Assembly: GCA_024277435.1 (NCBI GenBank)
Contig: JAJRVJ010000003.1
Location: 1-33,287, forward strand
Source of the DNA: Patescibacteria group bacterium
GTDB taxonomy: Bacteria > Patescibacteriota > Patescibacteriia > UBA9570
Direction of reading: 5' to 3'
DNA length: 33,287 bases
The translations under genes were made by a program, and so were the position numbers. Below are positions 2,424-33,235 of the stretch, piece by piece (within the stretch, counting starts at the first letter, position 1; every line of letters begins with the position of its first letter). The notes beneath the pieces are model-generated. The model did not search any database and was not told where the DNA came from. It saw only the letters and a list, made by a program, of their open reading frames with translations.

Positions 2424-5400
2424 ATGCGTGATCGTTCACCGTTGGCATTAATTCAATTCGGACTAGGCCTGTTAGCTGTTACGGTAACCGGTTTGTTTTT
2501 TTCTACTCTAGCCGTAATGGCTCAAGACGAAACTGATCTTGCAGCTAGTGCTACCGATTATGATATTCAGTTAGGTGCTAGTGATCCGATGGAATTAATT
2601 ACCTCAATCATTAATTGGTCGTTAGGTATCTTAGCTCTCATCGCCGTTATCATTATTATATGGGGCGGTGTTATTTGGATATTATCTCGTGGTGAAGAGG
2701 AAAAAATCCTTAAAGCTAAAACAATTTTACGAAACGGCTTAATTGGCCTAGGGATTATTTTGTCGGCTTGGGGTATTGCTACATATGTATTGAACTTGTT
2801 GCTAGACTTTACGGATGCTCCAGGATTTTACGATACGCCAGATGATGAGATTACCTACGGCGATGGATCGCCCTTCTTTGTGGATCATACAAATCCAAGC
2901 GATGGAGAAGAGGAGGTAACGTTATGTCATATTGTTGCCGCTACATTTTCATTCCCACTTAATGAAGAAACTGTTGATGAGGATAGTTTTCATACGTTTA
3001 TCCCTCGAGACTCCGTAAGTAATCCAACTGGTGGATTGAGTGACGGTGATAGTTGTTCCGACGATGTACAGTGTCGTTCTGGTGTATGTACCGAAAGTAG
3101 TGTCTGTGATGGTGATCAATTAGCTGGTTCATTTGATTTTTCAGAAAGTGGTTACTCAGCGGTATTTTATCCATCCGTGGATTATCAAGATAATACTACA
3201 TATAAGGTACAATTAGATACAACTATTGAAGGTATCGATCCAGAAACTGGAGCAGTGTATAATTTGTCATCGAGTGATAGTAAGCGCATATTTGAATTTA
3301 CTACCGGTACAGAAACTGATGAAATTCCTCCAACAGTTGATGTGGTGCAGGTTACGCCGTATCCAGAAGATGGGGCTACAGAAATTTGTTTAAATCCAAC
3401 ATTGCAAATTGGTTTCTCAGAGAGTTTAGATCCAGCATCGCCAGACGATGAAAATATTTGGTTATATGGATACGATGGTAGTGATCCGGCAGACGAGCTT
3501 GATATTGACAATGTACGTCTTCTAAGTATGGGAGGAGAAGCTGATGATACCATTGTGACAAGTCCAGAAGTAGAACTTTCAGAATTTACCGAGTATGGAA
3601 TGAATTTGTATAGTGGTGATGCCGATACTGATACATTTGAGAATGCTATTTATGATACGTGCGGTAATCCATTGAGCGGTGATTTTGATGATGAAATGGA
3701 AGGTTCACCAACGGATGATTTTGTGGATGCAACGAGCGCTGGTTTGGATCAAGCATTTTGTTCTTGTACGGAAGGCGTTGATACGTGTAACGTTGATGTA
3801 GGTGAATCATCTTGTGAGATTGACGCAGATACAACTTGTACATTAGATAGCGCGTGTTCTGATGCGCATGAAGACTATGTTGGATTTGAATATCAATGGA
3901 CATGGACAACCGGTGATCAACCATATTGTTCACCAGAGATTGATTCAATAACTCAAGAAGATAATTATTATTCTGAGGACGAAGATCCATACGGGGATAC
4001 TGGCAGTGAAGATACTGGAAAGGTATTGATTTCCGGAGATTATCTGTATCCATTTTACGATATAGATTTTTATAAGAATATATCAGCAGCTGGCATTCAG
4101 TGTTTTGATACGGACCACGAACCTAATATGTCCTGTTTTGTAAGTAATACTGGTAGCACTTCTATTACTGTACGTACTCCGGTGGGGAGTCGTGATGGTA
4201 GCGTTACCGTTGAGAATGCTGACGGTGAAGATACTTCAGCTGATGTGTTAACAGTTGATTCACCATATATACAATACACCTCTCCAAATGATGGACCAGT
4301 TGGTCAGTTTGTAACTATTAAAGGTACAAACTTTGGTGAAGATGAGGGGTTGGTCTATTTTGATGATATATTGGCAACGGTTCAATGTGAAGATGGTTGG
4401 AGTGATGATGCGATTATCGTGGCGGTACCAGATGGATTAGCTGATTATGAAACTCCCAAGATTCAAGTAATTCATGCTGATAATTACTATAGTAACCAAG
4501 CTACATTTGAGATGACGGACGGGGATCCAGGGCCTGGTATTTGTGAATTAAGCCCGGATTGTAGTGATGATGGATCGGAGAATGTAATTGCCTACGGTGA
4601 AAATTTTGGCGATAGTGGTACAGCGTACTTCAATGGTTCCGGAGAAGGCTATGAAGAAGCGGATATTGCTACATGGAATGATTATGATGTTGGAGAAGAC
4701 TCACAATATATTGAAACCAGTAGCACACCGGTAACGGAAGTGGATACATACGATTTTACCGCAGCTAATGATGATGGGATTAGTAATGGGTTAGATTATA
4801 CAATTACCTGTAGTGAGCAACCAGAGGTATTTGAGTTTAATCAATGTAGTATGGATGAGGATTTATGGTATTTACCAAACCCTCGTGGCAATGAGAAGAA
4901 TGCCTGTGTAAATTCAGTATCGATGATTGCGTTTACTGATAACATGGATTACACCACAACAGTTGCTAACACTAACATGTATAAGTGTAACTATGGCTTT
5001 GAAGATGACGGTGAAACCCTGATTGATTTTGATGATACAGAGTGCTCGGAAACTATTAGTGGAACTTTTGTAGTGGAAGCTATTTCCGATGCTTTTCTTG
5101 GCGGTGATGGCACAGGTACATTAAATGGTACTGAAGATGTAGATGGTGATGGTGATGAGGATTACTATGAAGGGTATACATTTTATCCTTCCAGCCTTGA
5201 TGCAGCGTATTGGTATAAAATTGAAGTTACAACAGGTGCATTAAATGAAGATGGTGTTCCATTAGCGGAGGATTATAGCTTTTCATTTCGCATTCGTAAT
5301 GACGTAGAAGATTGTGTAGCTGACGCATTATCGGTAGCGCCATATTCACAAATAGAAAATTCGTATGATAGCTCGGCTGCGTGTTTACAGAATTATGAAT

Positions 5401-8400
5401 ATGATTCCGACGATGATGGTAGTGATGAAGATTATACCTATCGTGCTCGGCCAGCTACTAGTGGATGTTTATTACTAGATGATGCAGGAACCTATAATTG
5501 GGAAATTGACGATGAAGATATCGTTCAATTTGGTGATTCGGACGATGCTTCGCAAGGGGATACCGATACCACTAGCAATGGATACGATACTATATGTTTA
5601 CAAGGTGAAGAAACCGCAAATACGGGTGATGCCACAGTAACGGTGAACTTGATGAATCCTGCTGATATTACTGAAGTGGCAGCATCGGATACAGCCGTAG
5701 TAACTGTAGATTTTGGCTACTGCACATCGGATGCAGATTGTATTACCGACGAGTGTAGTAATACTACCTGTGATGTAGAAACTTCACATTGTACACCAGA
5801 GATTACTAGCTTTACACCAAATAAGAGTACAGATGATGACCCAACTAATGACTCCGATCCTGATGTTGGACCCGGTGGTTGTATTACGTTGAATGGTTGT
5901 TATTTTGGTCCCGATCGAGCTGAGGCCGATTCTTGTACATGTACAAGTGTAGTGGATGAAACAGAGTGCTCTGTGAATGATGGAGATTCAACATGTTTAT
6001 TGCCAAGTAGAACGGATACATGCTCACTTGGTGAATCATTATGTGAGCTTAGTGAGGAATGTAGTTATACTAGTAGTACGGCTGAATTTGCCTCCGTTGA
6101 TGATGGTGGTGGATTCATTGGTTGCACATGCACCTCTGGAAGTGATACCTGTACGGTTGAAGATGAAGAAGAGAGTTGTGTAATTACTGGTACTGATGTG
6201 TGTTCAAGTTCGTACAGCACATATGTAGAGCCAAATGAGGGTAGTGTAACATTTAATACCACAGACGCCGAGTATCCAAGCGAAGTATATTGTGCGGATG
6301 TATGGGATAACGAGCAGGTTATTGCGCAAGTTCCTGAAACACTTGCGGCAGATGATTATGCCATTACGTTATATAGTTATTATTATAATGATATTTTAGG
6401 TTTCTATTTGAATGATACGTATGATGATGATACGTGTTCGGTAGGTACCGAGGCTACTCCATGTTTATGTACGGTAGATGCTAATGCCGCAGCGGAAAAT
6501 GATCTCGTAGATTTATTTGGTGAGAATTTTACATTATTAGATCCAGGATCTGGTAATGAGGAAGTAACATTTACAGATAGTACTAGCCGTACGGCTACTG
6601 ATGGCTCAGAAAGTTGGGATAGTGATAATCAAATCAGTGACGCGCCTGTACCTGAGGGCGCTGTGAGTGATGATGAAGAAGGCGTGCAATTAGAGAATGA
6701 TAGTTTAGGCATTACGAGTAATGCACTTGAATTTAGTGTGCAGTGTGAATCGAACTTTGATTGCGCAACAGGTTGCTGTTCCGATAATCAATGTGCTTCT
6801 GCTGAGGTATGTAATGCTTGTGAAAGTACTGATGACTGTGTAGACGGAGCATGCTCTTCAGAATGTGTAGATGGGCAATGTGCTCCAACTATTACTGCGG
6901 TGAGCCCAGAGGTAGGAGCAGTAGGGCAGCCAGTAACTGTACAAGGATGTTTCTTTGGAGCGTATTATGATTCCGATACATACGATCCATATAGTCGAGT
7001 AACGGTAGATGATATTGAGGCGTCACTAGCGTGTAGTGAAACGGATAGTTGGAGTAACAGTAAGGTTATTATAACTATACCAGACGGAATATTTGCCTCA
7101 GATGAAGATACTACTGGCGAAGTGCTATTGCGCCAAGTAAGTGATTCTGGTGCTAGTACACAAGATAGTAATACAGCAACCTTCACTCAAGATAATTCAT
7201 GTTCTACTGTAGATATTCCAGTATTATGTGATGCTACTCCAGCTTACAGTGCGTTTGATGACGATGAGGATACTGATGACAGTACTGGTAGTACCGATAC
7301 AAATATTTTATACGAGGGTGAGAATTTTTATGAAGCAGTAGATGGGTACTGTACATGTGAAACGGATAGTTTAGGAGAATGTGATGTAGATGAAGGTGAT
7401 ACGTCGTGTACTATAGAGGCAACTAATACATATTATGTAAATCCTGATGATACAGGAGAGCCATGTAGTGATGGTACAACTGAATATAACGATGAGGTTA
7501 TTAATGCTACATCAAACACCTATACATTATATGAACATAAGCCGGGAGAAACTTGGTGTACGTATGTAGATCCAGAAGATTCTAGTGTTTCATGTCAGAT
7601 TGCAGTAGGTGATACAAGTTGTGAGGAGACGGAATCAGAAACTTGTTATGCCGATCCAGATTATCCTACCACATCTGATGCATGTGCTTCTGATTTCGAA
7701 AATTATACTAGTTTATCTGGTGAGTTTAGTTATACAGATACCATTGAGGGAGATATTAACTTCCTTGGTTCAACTGATGAATTATATTATGTGAATGTGC
7801 CGTACGAATCGCAAACGGGTGACGTGCATGCTGTTGCCGTAATGGAGGATACTACACAATGTGTTAGTAATGGCCTTGAATTCCCTATTACTTGTGATGC
7901 CTGTGGAGATTGTGGCGATACAGGGTTGAATTGTGATCTAACCTTTGATGACGCATTTGGTTCATGTACAGCTGAGGTAACAGGATTCTGTCGTGAAAAT
8001 ACAAATTCATGCTGTAATACAACAAGTTGTGTGTATGATGACTCTGCCGATGAAGATGATGATGGCGGCACATGTGTAACACAGCCTACGATACTATTTG
8101 ATGAATACAATGATGACGGAGATCTTACATCGAATGCAGACACTAACCCAGAGCATGAGGATGTAGATATTTGTCCAAATGGTGAATTTAAATTGGATTT
8201 CTCATTACCGGTTACTACCGAAGATTTCTTTGGAGATACTGAAACTGATGAGAGTGAGGTTAATTTTGAGGACTATATTTTCTTACGCCCATCGTCTGTA
8301 GATGATGGTGATGTAGATACCGTTATCGATGATATCACTGTAGGTTCTGATCAAAGTACATTAACTCTTACACAGAGTGCATTGCTTGATTTTGAAACGG

Positions 8401-10673
8401 AGTATGAAATAATTATTCTGGCTAATCCTGAAATTGAATCTGATAATGATTATCAACAAGGTGTGATTAGTCGTGATAATGGGGCGGCAGTATACTGTAG
8501 TACAGATCAAATAGCTGATGGTTTATGTGATGAAGATACATATGTACGATACACCTTTACCACCATCGCTGAGGCTAGCTTTGAAGAGGCGTGTGGCCCG
8601 TCCTATGTAGTGCTAGAGGCGGATGGAGAAGAGTTCGTGGAAGATGGTTATATCTTTACTGAGGAAAATCAAGAGGAAGATTTCAGTGCATCTGTATATG
8701 CTGCTGGCGTTGATCAATATCCAGATGATGGAGAAACTGATTTTAACGGTGATGGTACATATGATGCTGATGCCGACAACGATGGTGATGGAGAGGATGA
8801 TGGAGATGATGACCAAGCTATTGTTCGTATCGCAGATGAAATGTATTGGGAATATGAATGGGATCCTGTATATGAAACTATTGAAGATCTTGAAGCTGCT
8901 TCGTGTCCAGTAGCCGGCATTATTTCTGGCGGAGAAACTGGAACATGTTCATGTGATTATGAAGATACCTGTGAAGTAACCGCTGGTAATCCATATTGTG
9001 AGATTGTTAATGATGCGGATACATTACGTTGCTTTACGGATTCACCTACAGCGGTATGTGATGAGCTTGATTCTACTTGGGATGGAAGCGCTTGTACCTG
9101 TACATTAGCAGCAAGCTGTTCCGTTGCGGCAGGTGAATCGAGTTGTTCAATCGATATTACATCTGAAGATTTTGAATATGATGAAGCGTCATCGTGTGAT
9201 ATTGGTGAAAGTTGTGGTGACACTTATGAAGGCTGGATAACGGGAGATTTTGTTGAGGACGATAACCAACAGGTAGTTACTGCCGATGGTGTAGAGGATA
9301 CCGACACTATTACCGTTGATGTGATTGGTGATGAAACAGTTGATGATTGGACTGATGATGATTCGCAAGCTGTTGAAGTAACATTCTGTCCTGATGCAGA
9401 TTACTTAGTGAGTTATGATAATGATGAATATAATTTTTCGTGGTCGTACTGTCGAGGTGATGATCCGCAGAGCGATGATTTCTTACCAGAATTTGAAGCG
9501 AAATTTAGTCTTGATGAAGCCAATGGTAATGAAGTAACTAATACGTATGGTGCTGATGCAGAATTTGTATACGAAGCTATCTTCCGGGATACTACATCTC
9601 AAGGCAATTATTTCGAAGCGAATAACAACACAATAGCCGTTCGTGTATACGATAATAATTTAGATGACGATCGTTCTACCATTGAAGATTCGGTAGGCCC
9701 AGCCCTATGGTTCTTATTAAAGGGTACAGCTAGTTCCGCTGGTTATAGTGAGGAAGAAATTGATGGTTATCAGGCTGTGAAAGTTGGAAATAGTTATTAT
9801 ATTGCCGCAACAAATTATGATGATACAGGATCTAGTATCGAGCCCGGTGCACTTACTCCGTATATTTTCGTAATAGCATGGAGCCAAGAGGCTAGCGAAG
9901 AAACGCAAGCTGTTGTTGATCAGTTAGTTGAATCCATTCGCTTTAATTCTAATGCCAGTGGAGTATTTGATGATGAGTGTAAATTAGAGAAACGCAAAGT
10001 AGTGCGTGATACGAAACGTGTTAACGACCTAGGTACTATTACATATTTATTATCTAGTTATTACTATAATGATGCGGATGGTAATGATGCTGCAGATTTT
10101 CCAGATGTGCAATCAGGATCATTCATTGCTGGCCTTACTGGTTCTGTATGGTCATCATGGAATTCAACATTGGGTAATGAATTAGGACAGAGTCTACCAA
10201 CCGATCCTATCAATACATACGATGATGCGGAAAATAATTGTCCGTTTGATCCGCCAGATATCGAACAAGGCGAGGATCCAGATAGTGGTAGTTATTACGA
10301 TGAAACTGGTACATGTTGGGATCCAATCTATCAAGATTATTATGGACCAGAAGGATCATATCTGTATCAATACCAATGGCGTGCAGATACGTGTAATGCA
10401 TCGGCTGGTGCATGTGATATTAGTGGTATTAAATGTGAGTCCGACGATGATTGTGATATTTTTGCTCTTTACTCAGACTTAGAATATACTGGAACGTATT
10501 CTTGGGAGGATGCTTCTACATGGAATCCGTGTTCTCAGTATGCAAATGGTGATACGGTAAGTGGTGATATTAGTGATTTTTCGAATGATGGCTGCGAAAC
10601 ATTTAATTATATGACACAATCAACATCTACTACATTAGATTCGGATTACTATGACAACAACTTCTCCGAATAA
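2424..10673 (+). CDS. Giant acidic surface protein with VirB2-like membrane module, Ig/TIG domains and Cys-rich repeats
   Basis: A 2749-residue protein with no clear full-length relative. Residues 1-33 form a signal-type segment. Two membrane helices (about 66-88 and 104-126, with WGGVIWILSRGEEEKILKAK between them) resemble the TrbC/VirB2 pilin-type module common in Patescibacteria. The rest is predicted extracellular and is very rich in Asp, Ser, Thr and Cys. It contains SbsA-like Ig segments (about 150-290, 300-420 and 1910-2060) and TIG/IPT-like folds (about 612, 1125 and 1487; for example SPNDGPVGQFVTIKGTNFG). It also has small disulfide knots (DSCSDDVQCRSGVC and similar near 1100 and 1441), a calcium-type Asp run near 2105, and at least seven copies of a Cys-rich repeat. 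There is no C-terminal anchor. It starts 5 bases after yqeY and overlaps the next gene by 23 bases. Adhesion or an episymbiotic attachment fibre is an inference. Confidence 0.85.
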   Translation: MRDRSPLALIQFGLGLLAVTVTGLFFSTLAVMAQDETDLAASATDYDIQLGASDPMELITSIINWSLGILALIAVIIIIWGGVIWILSRGEEEKILKAKTILRNGLIGLGIILSAWGIATYVLNLLLDFTDAPGFYDTPDDEITYGDGSPFFVDHTNPSDGEEEVTLCHIVAATFSFPLNEETVDEDSFHTFIPRDSVSNPTGGLSDGDSCSDDVQCRSGVCTESSVCDGDQLAGSFDFSESGYSAVFYPSVDYQDNTTYKVQLDTTIEGIDPETGAVYNLSSSDSKRIFEFTTGTETDEIPPTVDVVQVTPYPEDGATEICLNPTLQIGFSESLDPASPDDENIWLYGYDGSDPADELDIDNVRLLSMGGEADDTIVTSPEVELSEFTEYGMNLYSGDADTDTFENAIYDTCGNPLSGDFDDEMEGSPTDDFVDATSAGLDQAFCSCTEGVDTCNVDVGESSCEIDADTTCTLDSACSDAHEDYVGFEYQWTWTTGDQPYCSPEIDSITQEDNYYSEDEDPYGDTGSEDTGKVLISGDYLYPFYDIDFYKNISAAGIQCFDTDHEPNMSCFVSNTGSTSITVRTPVGSRDGSVTVENADGEDTSADVLTVDSPYIQYTSPNDGPVGQFVTIKGTNFGEDEGLVYFDDILATVQCEDGWSDDAIIVAVPDGLADYETPKIQVIHADNYYSNQATFEMTDGDPGPGICELSPDCSDDGSENVIAYGENFGDSGTAYFNGSGEGYEEADIATWNDYDVGEDSQYIETSSTPVTEVDTYDFTAANDDGISNGLDYTITCSEQPEVFEFNQCSMDEDLWYLPNPRGNEKNACVNSVSMIAFTDNMDYTTTVANTNMYKCNYGFEDDGETLIDFDDTECSETISGTFVVEAISDAFLGGDGTGTLNGTEDVDGDGDEDYYEGYTFYPSSLDAAYWYKIEVTTGALNEDGVPLAEDYSFSFRIRNDVEDCVADALSVAPYSQIENSYDSSAACLQNYEYDSDDDGSDEDYTYRARPATSGCLLLDDAGTYNWEIDDEDIVQFGDSDDASQGDTDTTSNGYDTICLQGEETANTGDATVTVNLMNPADITEVAASDTAVVTVDFGYCTSDADCITDECSNTTCDVETSHCTPEITSFTPNKSTDDDPTNDSDPDVGPGGCITLNGCYFGPDRAEADSCTCTSVVDETECSVNDGDSTCLLPSRTDTCSLGESLCELSEECSYTSSTAEFASVDDGGGFIGCTCTSGSDTCTVEDEEESCVITGTDVCSSSYSTYVEPNEGSVTFNTTDAEYPSEVYCADVWDNEQVIAQVPETLAADDYAITLYSYYYNDILGFYLNDTYDDDTCSVGTEATPCLCTVDANAAAENDLVDLFGENFTLLDPGSGNEEVTFTDSTSRTATDGSESWDSDNQISDAPVPEGAVSDDEEGVQLENDSLGITSNALEFSVQCESNFDCATGCCSDNQCASAEVCNACESTDDCVDGACSSECVDGQCAPTITAVSPEVGAVGQPVTVQGCFFGAYYDSDTYDPYSRVTVDDIEASLACSETDSWSNSKVIITIPDGIFASDEDTTGEVLLRQVSDSGASTQDSNTATFTQDNSCSTVDIPVLCDATPAYSAFDDDEDTDDSTGSTDTNILYEGENFYEAVDGYCTCETDSLGECDVDEGDTSCTIEATNTYYVNPDDTGEPCSDGTTEYNDEVINATSNTYTLYEHKPGETWCTYVDPEDSSVSCQIAVGDTSCEETESETCYADPDYPTTSDACASDFENYTSLSGEFSYTDTIEGDINFLGSTDELYYVNVPYESQTGDVHAVAVMEDTTQCVSNGLEFPITCDACGDCGDTGLNCDLTFDDAFGSCTAEVTGFCRENTNSCCNTTSCVYDDSADEDDDGGTCVTQPTILFDEYNDDGDLTSNADTNPEHEDVDICPNGEFKLDFSLPVTTEDFFGDTETDESEVNFEDYIFLRPSSVDDGDVDTVIDDITVGSDQSTLTLTQSALLDFETEYEIIILANPEIESDNDYQQGVISRDNGAAVYCSTDQIADGLCDEDTYVRYTFTTIAEASFEEACGPSYVVLEADGEEFVEDGYIFTEENQEEDFSASVYAAGVDQYPDDGETDFNGDGTYDADADNDGDGEDDGDDDQAIVRIADEMYWEYEWDPVYETIEDLEAASCPVAGIISGGETGTCSCDYEDTCEVTAGNPYCEIVNDADTLRCFTDSPTAVCDELDSTWDGSACTCTLAASCSVAAGESSCSIDITSEDFEYDEASSCDIGESCGDTYEGWITGDFVEDDNQQVVTADGVEDTDTITVDVIGDETVDDWTDDDSQAVEVTFCPDADYLVSYDNDEYNFSWSYCRGDDPQSDDFLPEFEAKFSLDEANGNEVTNTYGADAEFVYEAIFRDTTSQGNYFEANNNTIAVRVYDNNLDDDRSTIEDSVGPALWFLLKGTASSAGYSEEEIDGYQAVKVGNSYYIAATNYDDTGSSIEPGALTPYIFVIAWSQEASEETQAVVDQLVESIRFNSNASGVFDDECKLEKRKVVRDTKRVNDLGTITYLLSSYYYNDADGNDAADFPDVQSGSFIAGLTGSVWSSWNSTLGNELGQSLPTDPINTYDDAENNCPFDPPDIEQGEDPDSGSYYDETGTCWDPIYQDYYGPEGSYLYQYQWRADTCNASAGACDISGIKCESDDDCDIFALYSDLEYTGTYSWEDASTWNPCSQYANGDTVSGDISDFSNDGCETFNYMTQSTSTTLDSDYYDNNFSE
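3759..9222 (+). repeat. Interspersed Cys-rich protein repeat inside the giant surface gene
   Basis: At least seven units share the pattern C-x-C/Y-x(5-8)-C-x-V/I-x-x-G-D/E-x-x-C followed within 10-30 residues by one or two more Cys. Approximate unit starts are 3759, 5935, 6124, 7349, 7556, 8946 and 9091. Examples are CSCTEGVDTCNVDVGESSC and CTCTLAASCSVAAGESSC. The units are inserted between TIG- and Ig-like segments instead of forming one tandem block. They do not match a domain I can name. Confidence 0.7.
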
Positions 10674-20821: not shown

Positions 20822-23206
20822 ATGTACGAACTAGAAGGATTACGTAAACAGGTTTTCGACGACCGTTACGCTCTTAAAAATGACAAGGGTGAACAATTAG
20901 AAACCACACCTGAAGAAATGTGGAAACGCGTATCAGGTGCTATTGCCTTGGCAGAAAAAACTCCTGAACTCCAGAAGGAATGGGAGCCAAAATTTTATGA
21001 TATTTTAGAAGGCTTTGACTTTGTTCCTGGCGGACGCATTCTCGCTGGTGCTGGATCTGGTGTGCCACTTACATTTTATAACTGTTTTGTTATTCCATCT
21101 CCAGATGATAGCCGGGCAGGTATTATGGATAGCGTAACTACCATGATGGAAATTATGAGTCGTGGTGGTGGCGTAGGTGTAAATCTTTCTACTATTCGTC
21201 CGCGTGGTACCTATGTGAAGGGTGTAAATGGAACAGCTTCTGGATCCGTATCATTTGGTGCGCTTTATTCATTTGTAACTGGATTAATTATTCAAGGTGG
21301 TTCACGACGTGGCGCTTTGATGTTAATGCTTGATGATGATCATCCAGATATTGAAGAATTCATTACTGTTAAACAGGAAATGGGCCAAATTACGAATGCG
21401 AATCTTTCAATCTGTATTTCTGATAGCTTCATGGAAGCTGTTAAGGCTGAGGCTGATTGGGATTTAAAATGGGAAGGTGAAGTTGTACGCACTATTAAAG
21501 CGCGTGATTTATGGAACTTGATTTGTGATTCTGCTTGGAGATCTGGTTAACCGGGAATGATGTTTAAGGAGCGCTACAATAAAGAATCCAACTCTTGGTA
21601 CTTTGAAGATATTATTGCTACTAACCCATGTGGTGAGCAAGGTTTAGGTGCTTGGAATGTATGTAACTTAGGTGCTATTAATTTAGCTAACTTTGTATTA
21701 GAAGATGGGAGCTTCGATTACGATCGCTTAGGTAAAGTAACAGCAACAGCTATTCGTTTCTTAGATAATGTAATTGGAAGTACAGAATATTTCTTTCCAG
21801 AAAACGAAGAAGCGCAAATGGATATTCGTCGCACTGGATTAGGTTCGATGGGATTAGCTGATACCTTTATTAAAATGGGTATTCGGTATGGTAGCCCTGA
21901 AAGTATGGCAGTAGCTGAAAAGATCTACATGTTAGTGCGTGATGAGGCTTATCGAGCGAGCGCAATGATTGCTAAAGAAAAAGGATCTTTCGGAAAATAT
22001 GAGAAAGATAAGTTCATGCAAGGTAAATTTATTCAACGATTACCAAAAGACATTCAAAACCTTATTGAAGAAAATGGAATCCGTAATGGTGTGTTGCTTA
22101 CGCAAGCTCCTACAGGAACAACCAGTATTCTTTCCGGTGTAAGTTCTGGAATTGAGCCAGTATATGATTTTGCGTTCAAACGCAAAGATCGTTTAGGCGA
22201 GCATCTTGTATATCATCCATTATTTGAAGAGTGGAAGAATGCGCAAGAAGATGAAGATGCAGAGGCTCCAGACTATTTCATAAATGCGAAGCAACTTACT
22301 CCAGATGAGCATGTACAAATGCAAGGCATGATTCAGAAATATGTAGATTCGAGTATTAGTAAAACTGTAAATGCTCCGAATGAACATACACCAGAGCAAG
22401 TACAGGAGTTATACATTAAAGCCTACGATCTTGGGTGTAAGGGTGTAACATATTATCGTGATGGTTCACGTGATATCTCTGTATTAAGTTCTATCGATGA
22501 CGATGCAGAGGTGGATGGAGCTACTGAGGAAACTGGGCACAAAATGCGCCCACGTGAAATCGTTTCTCCACGATCTCGTCCTGAAAAGGTTGAGGGTGCT
22601 ACATATAAAGTAAAAACTGGTTACGGAACAATGTTCGTAACAATTAATCATGACGATCAAGGTCAGCCGTTTGAAGTATTCGCTACGATTGGTAAGGCTG
22701 GTGGAGTATTTGCTGAAGAATCCGAAGCGATTTGCCGATTAGTATCATTATCACTACGAGCGGGAATTCCTGCGCAAAATGTGATTGAACAAATTCGTGG
22801 TATTCGTGGGCCAATGCCTACTTTTGGTAAGAATGGAATGATCCTTTCTATTCCAGATGCGATTGGGCAAACCTTGGCTGAACATATCGAATCACACTCT
22901 CCAACACCCAAGTCCACACAACTAGCTGCTGAAGCTCAACAAGAGGTGAATGAAGAATTAATGGAGCAAGATGCTGGTCAAGATCTTATAGCACCTGCTG
23001 TAACTAAAGAAACTGTGTCTGTGAAACAAACCGAAAGTGTAACTGTAGAAACTGATGGTGCTGTAAAATATCAAACCTCAACTGCTGCTACAGCGTCTAT
23101 CGCGAATGTAGGGCTATCTCCTGAATGCCCTGAATGTGCAACTGTAATGGCGTTAGCCGAAGGTTGTATGACATGCTTTGGCTGCGGCTATAGTAAGTGT
23201 GCGTAA
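20822..23206 (+). pseudogene. nrdJ: Adenosylcobalamin-dependent (class II) ribonucleotide reductase, interrupted by an in-frame TAA
   Basis: Reduces ribonucleotides to deoxyribonucleotides using adenosylcobalamin as radical source. The reading frame is continuous except for one TAA at 21548-21550 (residue 243), between WRSG and PGMMFKERYNK. Relatives have SGDPG or SGEPG there, so a GAA-to-TAA change explains it; no bases are gained or lost. The first part (20822-21550) holds the N-terminal region with YNCFVIP. The second (first ATG 21557) holds the catalytic NPCGE motif (Cys radical, Glu), CNLGAINL, the TSCPD domain (TYKVKTGYGTMFV through MPTFGKNG) and the C-terminal redox cysteines (CPEC, CMTCFGC). 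Full length is about 794 codons, normal for NrdJ. All catalytic motifs are intact, so the stop may be a sequence error, a strain mutation or a read-through site. It is controlled by NrdR boxes. Confidence 0.93.
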
Positions 23207-25752: not shown

Positions 25753-27069
25753 TTATAGCATTGGTAGATACGTATCTACTTCGTACTGTGTTACTTGGGT
25801 GCGGTAAGCATCCCATTCAGCACGCTTGTTTTCGAGGAATTTTTCGAACACTTGTTCTCCAAGGACTTCTTTTAGCAATTCGCTCTTTTCTGCAAGAGCA
25901 ATAGCTTCTCCAAGGCTACCTGGTAGAGCGAAGATGCCACGTTCTTGCATTTCTGCTGGAGTCATTTCGAAAATGTCATCTTCTACAGCGTCAGCCAGTT
26001 CATAACCTTCTTCAATACCCTTTAATCCGGCGCGTAACATTACGGCGAATACAAGGTATGGGTTTGCAGCTGGATCTGGGCATCGTAATTCTACGCGAGC
26101 TGCATTGGCTTCGCCACGAGTAAGTGGAATGCGTATTAATGTAGAGCGGTTACGGCGACCCCATGCTAGATACACAGGTGCTTCGTATCCAGGAACTAAC
26201 CGTTTGTATGAATTTACATACTGGTTAGTAACTGCAACGATTTCTGGCATATGTTTTAGAATGCCCGCAACGTAGGATTTAGCCTCCTTGGATAAACCAT
26301 ATTCATCACTGTCATCATGAAAAATATTTTTCCCATCTTTCCACAAGCTTTGGTGAACATGCATTCCGCTACCATTTTCTCCAAAAATAGGTTTCGGCAT
26401 AAACGTTGCGTAAAAACCATGTTCATGCGCAATTTCTTTTACGATGTACTTATAGGTCATTACAATATCACCCATAGTAAGTGCGTCAGCATACTTCATG
26501 TTGATTTCTTGCTGTGATGGAGCTACTTCGTGATGACCGCGTTCAACTTCATAACCAAGTTTTTCTAGGGCTTCTACACTACGTTCACGGAGAAATGTAC
26601 TCTCATCCATAGTGAGTTGATCGAAGTATCCAGCAGTGTCGATAGTAACGGTATCGGTATTGTCGGCGAAGTAGAAATATTCTAGTTCAGGACCAACAAA
26701 CATTTTGTAACCTTTGCTTTCAGCGTATGCTAAGTTATCTGCTAGTATAGTTCGTGGGTCGCTGTGATACGGATTACCTTGCGCATCGAATACATCGCAC
26801 ATGAAACGTGCAATTTTGTGTACATCAGCTTCCAATGGCATGATAGCGAATGAATCGAGTACTGGCTTTAGCACTAGATCACTTTCTTCAATGCGTGCGA
26901 AGCCATCGATAGATGAGCCATCAAAAAAAGCACCTTCTTCAAGATACCGTTCTAATCGCTGCACTGGGAAGGTAATGCCTTTGAGCATACCGAGAACATC
27001 GGTAAACCAAAAACCAACCATAGTAACGCCTTCGGCTTTAACTTGTTTTAAAATATCAGCTTTCGTCAT
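25753..27069 (-). CDS. glnA: Glutamine synthetase, type I (alpha subtype)
   Basis: Makes glutamine from glutamate, ammonia and ATP; 438 residues, a dodecameric enzyme in its family. Visible motifs are DVLGMLKGIT, FFDGSSIDGF, metal-binding GPELEYFYF, GHHEVAPSQQEI, NGSGMHVHQSLW, NSYKRLVPGYEAP and RRNRSTLIRIP. The adenylylation-loop Tyr (NLYDLP in GSI-beta) is absent, so this is the alpha type, not controlled by adenylyltransferase. It has a consensus promoter and an 80-base leader with dual hexaloop hairpins, and it lies directly downstream of a GAF-ANTAR gene. RNA-level control of expression is therefore likely. No Shine-Dalgarno sequence precedes the ATG. Confidence 0.97.
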   Translation of the reverse strand: MTKADILKQVKAEGVTMVGFWFTDVLGMLKGITFPVQRLERYLEEGAFFDGSSIDGFARIEESDLVLKPVLDSFAIMPLEADVHKIARFMCDVFDAQGNPYHSDPRTILADNLAYAESKGYKMFVGPELEYFYFADNTDTVTIDTAGYFDQLTMDESTFLRERSVEALEKLGYEVERGHHEVAPSQQEINMKYADALTMGDIVMTYKYIVKEIAHEHGFYATFMPKPIFGENGSGMHVHQSLWKDGKNIFHDDSDEYGLSKEAKSYVAGILKHMPEIVAVTNQYVNSYKRLVPGYEAPVYLAWGRRNRSTLIRIPLTRGEANAARVELRCPDPAANPYLVFAVMLRAGLKGIEEGYELADAVEDDIFEMTPAEMQERGIFALPGSLGEAIALAEKSELLKEVLGEQVFEKFLENKRAEWDAYRTQVTQYEVDTYLPML

Positions 27070-27084
27070 AATGGGTTAGACGAT

Positions 27085-27150
27085 AAAAAATTAGGCTCGG
27101 AAGATGACTTCCTTGTCATTCCAAATATGAATTGAGCACTTCTTTGTACT
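27085..27150 (-). ncRNA. ANTAR-type dual-hexaloop leader of glnA
   Basis: On the minus strand, hairpin 1 is AGTAC-AAAGAA-GTGCT (27150-27135) and hairpin 2 is ATGAC-AAGGAA-GTCAT (27119-27104). Both have six-base loops with A at position 1 and G at position 4, the known hallmark of RNA bound by ANTAR domains, and they are joined by a 15-base linker. Overlapping hairpin 2 is an alternative stem GGAAG-TCAT-CTTCC (27112-27099) followed by GAGCCTAA and T6 (27090-27085); GCTC (27137-27134) can also pair with GAGC (27098-27095). ANTAR binding could thus favour the twin hairpins over a terminator and switch glnA on. The terminator stem is short, so the exact mechanism is uncertain. Confidence 0.72.
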
Positions 27151-27158
27151 ACACCTGT

Positions 27159-27188
27159 ATTATAGGGCCTAATGAAGATTAGTGTCAA
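27159..27188 (-). promoter_or_regulatory. glnA promoter
   Basis: Minus strand: TTGACA (27188-27183), an 18-base spacer, and a perfect TATAAT (27164-27159). The spacer contains the inverted repeat CTAAT-CTTC-ATTAG, and CAAAC-ATC-GTTTG overlaps the -35 side; either could be an operator. Transcription starts just before ANTAR hairpin 1. Confidence 0.88.
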
Positions 27189-27213
27189 ACGATGTTTGGC
27201 ATGTGGATAACCT

Positions 27214-27933
27214 CTAGGAGTCAAGTGTAAGAATAATTGCTTGAGCGATATCTTTCATGGTTTTTTTCGTATTCATCGCCTTTTTTCTAATCATTTGATA
27301 GGCCTCTTCTTCGGTTTTGTTATAGTGTTTCATAACCATGCCCTTGGCTTTTTCTAACACCTTACGGGTTTGTAAGGTTTCTTTAAGTGTAATGGTTTCA
27401 GAAATTAACTTTGCGTTAGATAATGCGCCGCCTACTTGAGCGGCAATAATTTCAAGCATACGAATATGATCCTTGGTGTAGCGCCGGGCTTTTTTATTTT
27501 GGACATTAATTACACCAATCAATTTTTTTTGATAGATAATTGGCATTGAAATAAAGGCTTCCCAATTATCTTCATCAAGTTTAGCAATTTTTGCGAATCG
27601 TTTATCGTTGTACGCTTCTTTATTGAGCGCAACAGTTTTTTGATATTGCGCTACCCAACCAGTGATACCTACGCCAAATTCCAGCGCCATTTTATTAATC
27701 ATGCCGGGATGGGGTATTTTGGATGCTTTTAATATAAGGTGGCTATCTTGCGCTAAATAGATCAAGCACGCATCCGATTTCATGGTGCCGGAAACTAGTG
27801 AAACAATTTCATCGAGCACTTCACTAATATTCAAATTATAGCTAATTGTTTCGGTTATCCGATGCAATAACTTGAGTTCTTCGGTTTTTTTCTTGAGTTT
27901 ACGCTTAAGGGCTGCCGTGGAGGTGGTAGTCAT
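27214..27933 (-). CDS. GAF-ANTAR domain RNA-binding regulator
   Basis: A 239-residue regulator. A short N-terminal coiled coil (LKRKLKKKTEELKLLHRI) is followed by a GAF sensor domain (about 25-170; GVGITGWVAQYQKTVAL and FISMPIIYQKKLIGVINVQNKK are typical). The C-terminal ANTAR domain (about 180-235; LQTRKVLEKAKGMVMKHYNKTEEEAYQMIRKKA) forms a three-helix RNA-binding fold. ANTAR proteins act as antiterminators by holding two hexaloop hairpins in mRNA leaders. Exactly such a leader lies 60 bases downstream, before glnA, on the same strand, so glnA is the probable target. The ligand of the GAF domain is unknown; a nitrogen signal is an inference. It is divergent from the rhodanese gene with only 25 bases between. 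Confidence 0.92.
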   Translation of the reverse strand: MTTTSTAALKRKLKKKTEELKLLHRITETISYNLNISEVLDEIVSLVSGTMKSDACLIYLAQDSHLILKASKIPHPGMINKMALEFGVGITGWVAQYQKTVALNKEAYNDKRFAKIAKLDEDNWEAFISMPIIYQKKLIGVINVQNKKARRYTKDHIRMLEIIAAQVGGALSNAKLISETITLKETLQTRKVLEKAKGMVMKHYNKTEEEAYQMIRKKAMNTKKTMKDIAQAIILTLDS

Positions 27934-27958
27934 ATGCTTCTATGGTATACTAGGTTCC

Positions 27959-28264
27959 ATGAAACCTCAAGAAGTATATAACGATTTACAGATTCCTTCG
28001 AATAGTCATTTAATTGATGTTCGTGAATTGCAGGAATATTCTGCTGGCCATGCCCAAGATGCGGTGCATATGCCGTTATCGGATTTAGTGAATCTTATTC
28101 CTAAATGTACATACGATAAAGATGCTGATGTGTATCTGATGTGTAGGTCGGGCGGTCGTAGTTCTGTTGCGGTAGGTTTATTTACAAAAGCCGGTTTTAC
28201 AAAAGTACATAATGTAGATGGTGGAATTATTGCATGGGATGCTGCTAAACTACCTATCGAGTAA
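27959..28264 (+). CDS. Rhodanese-like sulfurtransferase, single domain
   Basis: A 101-residue single-domain rhodanese. It shows LIDVRELQEYSAGHAQDAVHMPLSDL, the active-site loop CRSGGRS with the catalytic Cys, and the C-terminal VHNVDGGIIAWDAAKLPIE. Such proteins carry persulfide sulfur between donors and acceptors. The frame extends back to 27872 over the opposite-strand ANTAR gene, but the ATG at 27959 gives the normal domain start. A TATACT hexamer (27946-27951) lies seven bases before it, another leaderless-type start. Confidence 0.92.
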   Translation: MKPQEVYNDLQIPSNSHLIDVRELQEYSAGHAQDAVHMPLSDLVNLIPKCTYDKDADVYLMCRSGGRSSVAVGLFTKAGFTKVHNVDGGIIAWDAAKLPIE

Positions 28265-31005: not shown

Positions 31006-32021
31006 ACTTCAACATCTTCACTTGATAGATTGTTAGGAACTGCAATGATTTCATCTTCACCTGGCATGATGATTTCACTGTAGGCTTCTGGCCAGGTGGA
31101 GGTATCACCTAGTACGGGAATCATCCATTGGGTTGTTGGGATGGTATTTTGTACTTCATCACTTAATAGATAGTCTACAAACGCTTGGCTAGTTTCGGTA
31201 TGCTATGTGCCACGTACGATACCAGCACCTTCTACTTGCCGAACATAACCTTCCTTAATAGGGATAGCTGCATATTGATAGCTGTCTTCTTGATCAATAT
31301 GATACGCTGGGCTGGTGAGGTAGCTTAATACAATAGGGGCTTCACCTTCTAGGAAGAGATTAAAATACGCGGTGCCCCAATCGGGTGTAACTTGAAATAC
31401 ATTGCTTGCCATATTGTTCCAGAAGAGTTCTGCTGCATTTTCAGAAATCCCGTAGCGTGTCCATAACATAAGTTGTGTGCCAGGGGAGGATAATCCTGCT
31501 TGCTCGATAATTACTTGATTCGCATATGTACTTGAGGCAAGATCGCTAAGGCTGATTGGTTCATCGAATGTAAGGGCTTCTGTATCGTAGACAAATCCAA
31601 TGTAGCCGTAATCGAATGGTGTCATTGTGAATTCCTCATCAAAGCGAAGGTTGCTAGTAATTTCCGCAGAGCGCTCTGGAGTGTATGGAGAGAGTAGGTT
31701 GTTTTCAATAACTGTTGAATAATCTATATTATCTAATCCCATCACTACATCAGCTTTAGGATTATCTTGTTCAGCTAGTAGTTGATTGATCATGCTACCG
31801 GTATCGCTGAATGTAACGATATCCAATTTCGCATTAGCTTGGTTTTCGAAGGATTCCGTGATTTGTGGTAGCAAGCCATATTCGGCTGCTAAGCTATCAT
31901 ATGTGTATAGCGTTAGTGTAGTTGGTGTTTTAGCTTCATTAGTTGTTTGTTCTGATACGCTTGTGCAACCGGCTAGGGTAGCAATCGCGGCGCACAGAAA
32001 TACGGCGACAGTTTTTTTCAT
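30966..32021 (-). pseudogene. thiB: Thiamine-binding lipoprotein of ABC transporter, interrupted by an in-frame TAG
   Basis: An extracytoplasmic solute-binding protein of the ThiB/TbpA family. It has a lipoprotein signal MKKTVAVFLCAAIATLAGC (lipobox LAGC), then LTLYTYDSLAAEYGLLPQITESFENQ, AKLDIVTFSDTGSMINQLL and ADVVMGLDN. The ATG at 32021 is chosen, since the frame upstream only reads the terminator. At codon 273 (31205-31203) a TAG separates VEGAGIVRGT from HTETSQAFVDYLLSDEVQN. Relatives read (A/G)-K-H there, so AAG-to-TAG is the likely change. The frame then runs on to 30966, giving about 350 residues, close to family length. The last 79 residues would be lost, including part of the second lobe. 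Confidence 0.88.
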
Positions 32022-32037
32022 GATTGTTGCGTAAATA

Positions 32038-32060
32038 ATAAAAACCCCTGTAACAGGGGT
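32038..32060 (-). terminator. Terminator of the TPP riboswitch
   Basis: Minus strand: ACCCCTG, TTA, CAGGGGT, then a T-run. It lies between the riboswitch and the thiB ATG, so it is the expected expression platform: thiamine pyrophosphate binding would favour termination. Confidence 0.9.
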
Positions 32061-32080
32061 GGACAAATCAAAAATAGATT

Positions 32081-32156
32081 AGCCACATTCCCTGCGCTGG
32101 CATTATCCAGATCAGGTGCTAAGGATATTTCTCAGGCTCACGAGTGAACCACTCCT
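32081..32156 (-). promoter_or_regulatory. TPP (THI-box) riboswitch
   Basis: Minus-strand RNA with the conserved elements GTGAGCCTGAGA, ACCTGATCTGGATAATGCC and AGCGCAGGGAA, the invariant pyrimidine-sensor and pyrophosphate-sensor helices of the thiamine pyrophosphate riboswitch. It is followed by a terminator and the thiB-thiP-thiQ operon, so it should shut down thiamine uptake when the cofactor is plentiful. Confidence 0.96.
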
Positions 32157-32169
32157 ATATAGCAGATTG

Positions 32170-32317: not shown

Positions 32318-33160
32318 CTAGTAGACCGACCCGCGGCTGTAGTCACCGCGGCCGTGGCCGGTGACCGCGCTCCAGGCGGCCCAGAAGCCGCCCGGACGCA
32401 GCACCTTGTCCCAGCTGAGGGGCAGGTGGCTACGCCGGAACTCGTCGGGGTCGGCTTCCAGCACGCGGCGGGCGGCTTCGGACCAGAAGTCCATGCGTTC
32501 GGCGCGCAGGTCCACGGCCCAGAGGTGATCGGGATCGCCCAGGGGCAGGCCCACGCGGCGGATCTGCCCCGCCACCTCTTCGGCCTTCAGCCGGGTGCGC
32601 TTGGTGTTGGGCATGCCATCCTCGCCCAGGCTCACGCAGGGGCAGAACAGTCCCGTCGTGATGACAGGGATGCCCAGCTGCTGGATGACCCACAGCTCCC
32701 AGAGGTGGGTGGTGAGGTACGGCCCCAGGTTGCCGAAGGCCACGGAACCGGTCTGGTTCGTGACGCAGAGCTCTTCCATCTGCTTGAGCAGACGGTTGCG
32801 CTCGGCGAACGAGGTGGGGTCCGGGTGGAGGCTCTGCTCGATGTAGGTGCCGTCGTTGAACAGCAGCCGTCCGAGGGTGTCCAGCACCGCAGCGGACACT
32901 GCGCCGGCCGAGACCGTCTCCATTTGCCCGAGGGTGGTGATGGCGACCGTCTCTTCCATGCCGAACTGGCCGTTCTCGCCGCACCGCTCACCGACGCCCG
33001 TGAAGGGGCCGTTGATCTGCAGCGTGACGGCCGTGGGATCGTTCCGGTCCACGAAGGAGCTACTCACCTGCTTCGGCACCCCCCGGAACGCGCCCAGGGC
33101 GATGTGCCCGAAGAACGGCGGCTCGAACCCGATCATCCCGCGGGGGAGAGACCGTTTCAT
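32318..33160 (-). CDS. GC-rich gene of unknown function, probably acquired
   Basis: About 280 residues from the ATG at 33160 (MKRSLPRGMIGFEPPFFGH); an upstream ATG at 33211 would add 17 residues encoded by AT-rich DNA, and an internal one lies at 33136. The protein looks soluble, with no signal or membrane segment. It has segments such as FVDRNDPTAVTLQINGPF, GQFGMEETVAITTLGQMETVSAGAVSAAV, TTGLFCPCVSLGEDGMPNTKRT and a Trp-rich C-terminus. I do not recognise a family. GC is about 70% over two counted 60-base lines (32521, 32881), against about 38% in nrdJ. The opposite strand is also open over most of the region, as happens in GC-rich DNA. The minus frame is preferred for its balanced composition. 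No Shine-Dalgarno sequence is clear. Confidence 0.65.
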   Translation of the reverse strand: MKRSLPRGMIGFEPPFFGHIALGAFRGVPKQVSSSFVDRNDPTAVTLQINGPFTGVGERCGENGQFGMEETVAITTLGQMETVSAGAVSAAVLDTLGRLLFNDGTYIEQSLHPDPTSFAERNRLLKQMEELCVTNQTGSVAFGNLGPYLTTHLWELWVIQQLGIPVITTGLFCPCVSLGEDGMPNTKRTRLKAEEVAGQIRRVGLPLGDPDHLWAVDLRAERMDFWSEAARRVLEADPDEFRRSHLPLSWDKVLRPGGFWAAWSAVTGHGRGDYSRGSVY

Positions 33161-33194
33161 TTTGGGCGCGTAAAAAGTCGTTTTCTCTGCTATG

Positions 33195-33235
33195 ATTAGC
33201 TTCAAATACATTGTTTAACCTGTTAAGAAGCTAAT
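33195..33235. repeat. Inverted repeat upstream of the second GC-rich gene
   Basis: ATTAGCTTC (33195-33203) and GAAGCTAAT (33227-33235) form nine-base arms. Inside lies a second palindrome, TTAACCTGTTAA (33215-33226). It sits where the promoter or operator of the minus-strand gene, or the border of the inserted segment, would be. Confidence 0.6.

Follow-up and report, generated by a model that had tools for sequence, protein, structure and literature searches.

How does a bacterium of the Patescibacteria, a vast and uncultured lineage of very small bacteria with reduced genomes on whose metabolic regulation almost nothing is known, control its glutamine synthetase? The question is raised by a stretch of 33,287 nucleotides (hereafter, the window) harboring what appears to be a specific circuit in which a regulator and its RNA target are combined with a gene of nitrogen metabolism. 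Read 5' to 3' on the minus strand, it comprises a GAF-ANTAR gene (27933-27214), a promoter, a hairpin (P1), a linker, a second hairpin (P2), a U6 tract and glnA. The original prediction held that the glnA leader is the target of the ANTAR protein encoded next door, and this core claim is strongly supported by the comparative evidence from related genomes. Operation of the leader as an antitermination switch under that protein is, in our judgment, the probable reading of the locus.

The gene directly upstream of glnA (27214..27933, minus strand) encodes a protein of 239 aa, in which Pfam confirms both of the domains that had been predicted, namely GAF (PF01590, 2.6e-17) and, at the C-terminus, ANTAR (PF03861, 8e-19; 67.6 bits vs. 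the cut-off of 27.3, residues 183-234). A genome-wide domain search detected no other ANTAR domain in the 1.33-Mb genome. The domain is also rare in the phylum, since only three of the 380 genomes sampled, this one included, gave any ANTAR match, two of them above the cut-off. Homologue searches, carried out in 144 related genomes and 84,980 species genomes, nevertheless retrieved 14 further distinct Patescibacteria genomes in which an ANTAR gene neighbors glnA in the same orientation (in two of them the genes are about 1 kb apart) and a fifteenth, G009 (L133), where an ANTAR fragment lies beside glnA. No glutamine synthetase was encountered near the ANTAR locus in the 60-odd homologues fetched from Acidobacteria, Nitrospirota, Elusimicrobia and Planctomycetes. 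Those linked to glnA fall together in a tree of 29 ANTAR proteins (4 changes vs. 9.9 in shuffles), and the protein from the window groups with those of G003 and G001 from its own family.

The region between the two genes was predicted to carry a consensus promoter just ahead of two short hairpins with hexaloops AAAGAA and AAGGAA, each featuring A1 and G4, and it does so. The promoter is of the sigma-70 type (27159..27188, minus strand), with the -35 element TTGACA at 27188-27183, a spacer of 18 nt and the -10 element TATAAT at 27164-27159; it is a 12/12 match and the sole such site within 26900-28100. P1 (27135..27150, minus strand; AGTAC(AAAGAA)GTGCT) starts 8 nt after the -10 element and has five pairs, one of them G-U. 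P2 (27104..27119, minus strand; ATGAC(AAGGAA)GTCAT) has five pairs as well, and its core, GAC and GTC flanking the loop, is common to most relatives. A dual hexaloop comparable to this one was found in none of 300 dinucleotide shuffles of the leader, and no Rfam family matched the leader at any sensible score. The linker between P1 and P2 is 15 nt long in the window and ranges from 1 to 36 nt in the other leaders. In the eut leader of E. faecalis, linkers of 5-12 nt have been seen and a linker of 14 nt drastically cut induction (PMC3369931). The linker in the window falls outside this range, a point against the proposed switch, though the range is not a general definition and three relatives have longer linkers; the ANTAR-leader search model of 2012 likewise permitted a variable linker (PMC3369931). 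Moreover, one hexaloop alone has been reported to suffice for ANTAR binding (PMC8934654). As a side observation made by eye, the stretch ATTAGGC in the promoter spacer (27174-27168) could pair with GCCTAAT just before U6, which could give a terminator only for transcripts begun upstream of the promoter.

According to the proposed mechanism, transcription would start at the TTGACA/TATAAT promoter, so that the RNA would open directly with P1 and P2 would come next. A GAF domain reporting nitrogen need would then let the ANTAR dimer bind the hexaloops of P1 and P2; the bound dimer would hold P2, otherwise the source of the 5' arm of the terminator, so that transcription continues into glnA. Without the nitrogen-need signal, transcription would end before glnA. 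The structural side of this scheme is best seen in the relatives: in about 12 of them, folding the leader from P2 on gives, as the best structure, a stem-loop followed by a U tract. This stem-loop (-10 to -22 kcal/mol in most) takes its 5' arm from the 3' strand of P2, hence P2 and the terminator are mutually exclusive. In L003, L044 and L063, the apical loop of the terminator is itself a hexaloop of the A/G-N-N-G type (GATGAT, AATGAT and AATGAT, respectively) and may offer the ANTAR protein a third site, within the terminator.

In the window itself, the alternative stem that had been predicted along with the T6 run does exist (GGAAG-UCAU-CUUCC, 27099..27112, minus strand) and excludes P2, but it is a weak candidate terminator (-6.1 kcal/mol), fails the standard terminator scan and ends 8 nt before the U6 tract (27085..27090, minus strand). 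Because the window's own terminator is weak, the antitermination step in this genome is extrapolated from the relatives. Hence the strongest alternative: the leader is bound by the ANTAR protein, but with the terminator decayed, binding acts here on translation or RNA stability, or else glnA expression is nearly constitutive. This alternative draws on the weakness of the stem and the long gap to U6, on the stability of P2 without protein (the minimum-energy fold of the leader retains P2, not the competing stem) and on the precedent of ANTAR targets lacking terminators, which may be regulated at the level of translation (PMC3369931). At the same time, the promoter, both hairpins, their loop bases and U6 all remain in the window, and its closest relatives, L003 and L004, possess strong terminators at the same place. 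On balance, decay of the switch is an unlikely reading, and antitermination is the preferred one.

Binding of the leader by the ANTAR protein, which both of these readings assume, could be doubted on the grounds that the motif is short and that the window site attains modest scores with covariance models (see below), i.e., the hairpins might arise by chance or serve another factor, the ANTAR gene being beside glnA incidentally. The comparison of leaders speaks against this. A dual hexaloop was recorded when both loops had A1 and G4, the stems were at least 3 bp long with at least two G-C pairs and the linker did not exceed 30 nt; by this rule, whose thresholds were fixed after the leaders had been inspected and which dinucleotide shuffles almost never pass, it is present in 14 of the 16 ANTAR-linked glnA leaders and absent from all 17 glnA leaders of those relatives that lack a detected GAF-ANTAR gene (Fisher exact 1.5e-7). 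The two misses are L003, where the P2 loop is GATGAT, and L006, with a U-U mismatch in P1. Across the 16 leaders, G4 occurs in 32/32 loops and A1 in 29/32, i.e., in all first loops and in 13/16 second loops; the P2 loop starts with G in L003, L063 and L068. The loop bases are thus nearly constant and the hairpins track the ANTAR gene, in line with what was expected of related glnA leaders if the prediction was right. The homologous leaders mostly carry a promoter 5-14 nt before P1, several of the matches being weak. A telling case is G002 from the same family, which features thiP, thiQ, glnA and a DUF1858 gene in the same order and has kept the promoter: at this syntenic site, the ANTAR gene and the RNA hairpins are absent together. 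No dual hexaloop was found near the ANTAR genes of Moranbacteria L065 and Levybacteria L090.

The stems themselves point in the same direction. When the 16 leaders are aligned gap-free, 91.9% of cells pair, and double-sided changes occur in 34 cells vs. 10.1 in shuffles; since the hairpins were picked partly by pairing, these counts are inflated and were weighed jointly with the presence/absence result. The covariation score for both hairpins is 0.637 vs. 0.229 in shuffles, and it drops to 0.196 or less once the partners are slid. A covariance model built from 13 leaders with the window excluded (R1) ranked the leader site first in the window, at 20.2 bits (E about 0.02), the next best match scoring 8.1. 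Hence, both the compensatory stem changes and the match to a covariance model that the prediction called for were found. A second model, R2, gives the window site only 12.7 bits, probably in part due to the long linker. In the scan of 144 relatives with R2, the five best matches are situated in ANTAR-bearing genomes, all from the training set, and ANTAR-less genomes yielded nothing above chance.

R1 also revealed copies on which it had not been trained. One lies between an ANTAR gene and amtB, encoding an ammonium transporter, in a Candidatus Uhrbacteria genome (L036); another, a weak one (19.9 bits) with both hairpins visible, is located 5' of a glutamine synthetase of another type in Uhrbacteria G020 (L164). 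Together with the leader contrast, the covariation and the joint absence in G002, this recurrence upstream of amtB and of a second glutamine synthetase makes a chance origin of the hairpins, or a role for another factor, highly improbable. With its three GAF-ANTAR genes and a minimum of two dual-hexaloop leaders, genome G020 (L036, L164) looks as if it had a small nitrogen regulon. Further untrained copies were located upstream of small genes in L039 and L041; these dual-hexaloop RNAs with terminators (L039, 4187-4220 and 4646-4682; L041, 4637-4673) lie ahead of short, functionally uncharacterized genes that immediately precede the ANTAR gene. The existence of an Uhrbacteria genome with two or more sites might also suggest that the ANTAR protein of the window mainly targets genes elsewhere and that the glnA site is a minor one, but this is the least probable reading of all, as no other convincing site emerged in its own genome in scans of limited sensitivity, the whole-genome scans with R1 and R2 having missed the known window site too. 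Two candidates were rejected: the top match bearing on a wider regulon in the same genome sits inside a ribosomal protein operon, and a further site in G001 (L161), situated within an ORF, is probably a chance match.

In an alignment with EutV (6wsh), nine of the 11 hexaloop-contact residues of EutV are identical in the window protein (R142, K143, K147, K149, E160, Y164, R168, M172 and N173); R175 is replaced by K and R177 by T, and the mycobacterial ANTAR protein 1s8n likewise has T at the position of R177. In the AlphaFold2 model (pLDDT 87.9), the GAF domain can be seen along with a long helix and the helices of the ANTAR domain. By sequence, the closest solved structure to this GAF domain is the GAF domain of PtsP/EI-Ntr (3ci6, 8e-21), which is also the closest by fold (TM 0.88, normalised by target). 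Glutamine binding has been reported for GAF domains of this PtsP-type (EI-Ntr) family (PMC4848567), so the signal would most likely be glutamine or 2-oxoglutarate, with the GAF domain as the direct sensor, a reasonable guess by analogy.

The gene downstream, glnA (25753..27069, minus strand), codes for a type I glutamine synthetase of 438 aa (PF00120/PF03951). Judging by eye from its C-terminal sequence, the enzyme has IFEM where NLYDLP would align, so the adenylylation tyrosine is missing, as had been noticed. It does not follow that the ANTAR circuit replaces adenylylation, as was also proposed: none of the eight genomes tested has GlnE, and since G002, with no ANTAR gene either, is among them, nothing points to a replacement and the idea was rejected as framed. 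The search gave matches in each of its controls (E. coli, Caulobacter and Corynebacterium). The genome of the window gave no match for PII, an ammonium transporter (Amt) or GlnE.

These findings leave room for a broader and tentative idea, which we regard as possible rather than probable, of one-protein, one-RNA nitrogen control in Patescibacteria without PII and GlnE. A GAF-ANTAR protein would sense glutamine or 2-oxoglutarate directly and, through antitermination, set the level of glutamine synthetase and, in certain lineages, that of ammonium uptake as well, substituting for the PII/NtrC or GlnR of larger genomes. The predicted circuit recurs in Gottesmanbacteria, Buchananbacteria, Uhrbacteria, Roizmanbacteria and the window's own family, and in different genomes it is tied to different types of glutamine synthetase and to an ammonium transporter. 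The GAF-ANTAR proteins thereby gain a testable role and, from the EI-Ntr GAF domain, a concrete ligand hypothesis.

Several other features of the window are worth recording. The reading frame of a class II ribonucleotide reductase (20822-23206) contains an in-frame TAA at 21548-21550, either a real disruption or a sequencing error; its relatives, we presume, have SGEPG at this position. An ORF of 2749 aa with abundant Cys, Asp and Thr (2424-10673) probably encodes a large surface protein. A TPP riboswitch (RF00059, 68.3 bits; 32072-32166, minus strand) is situated upstream of an ABC uptake cluster, probably for thiamine, with a solute-binding protein at 31203-32066. Toward the contig end (32001-33287), G+C rises from about 0.42 to 0.61, suggesting a possible assembly join or foreign DNA; the ORF at 32318-33211 (minus strand) matched no Pfam family.

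As to known systems, the leader resembles the RNAs recognized by EutV, NasR and AmiR in the two short hairpins, the A1/G4 hexaloops and, as is clear in about 12 relatives, a terminator overlapping P2, and also in the nitrogen genes downstream, including those for glutamine synthetase and ammonium transporters (PMC3369931), upstream of which Ramesh et al. (2012) predicted ANTAR leaders (PMC3369931). The Patescibacteria set differs in its GAF signal domain and in the relaxation of A1 to G in three P2 loops. Ramesh et al. (2012) knew of no characterised example of the GAF-ANTAR type (PMC3369931), and Patescibacteria do not figure among the phyla listed in the companion overview (PMC3369936). In EI-Ntr (PtsP), the GAF domain is coupled to a phosphotransferase, whereas in the window a GAF domain with a predicted ligand is coupled to an RNA-binding domain. 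The arrangement had been thought undescribed in such a reduced bacterium: a full-text search of 5.39 million papers, most subscription journals lying outside it, found no earlier report of an ANTAR domain in Patescibacteria. This genome is not alone in having the arrangement, which recurs in several Patescibacteria lineages. The nearest counterpart is NitR of Clostridium saccharobutylicum, described as an ANTAR antiterminator of GS/GOGAT genes under nitrogen limitation (PMC6316151). Like NitR, the window protein is an ANTAR family protein, and it is predicted to antiterminate glutamine synthetase expression; NitR belongs to a clostridial nitrogen-assimilation gene cluster, whereas the GAF-ANTAR gene described here stands directly upstream of glnA in a member of the Patescibacteria. 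ANTAR control of glutamine synthetase is thus already known from NitR, and what appears to be new here is its probable occurrence in Patescibacteria.
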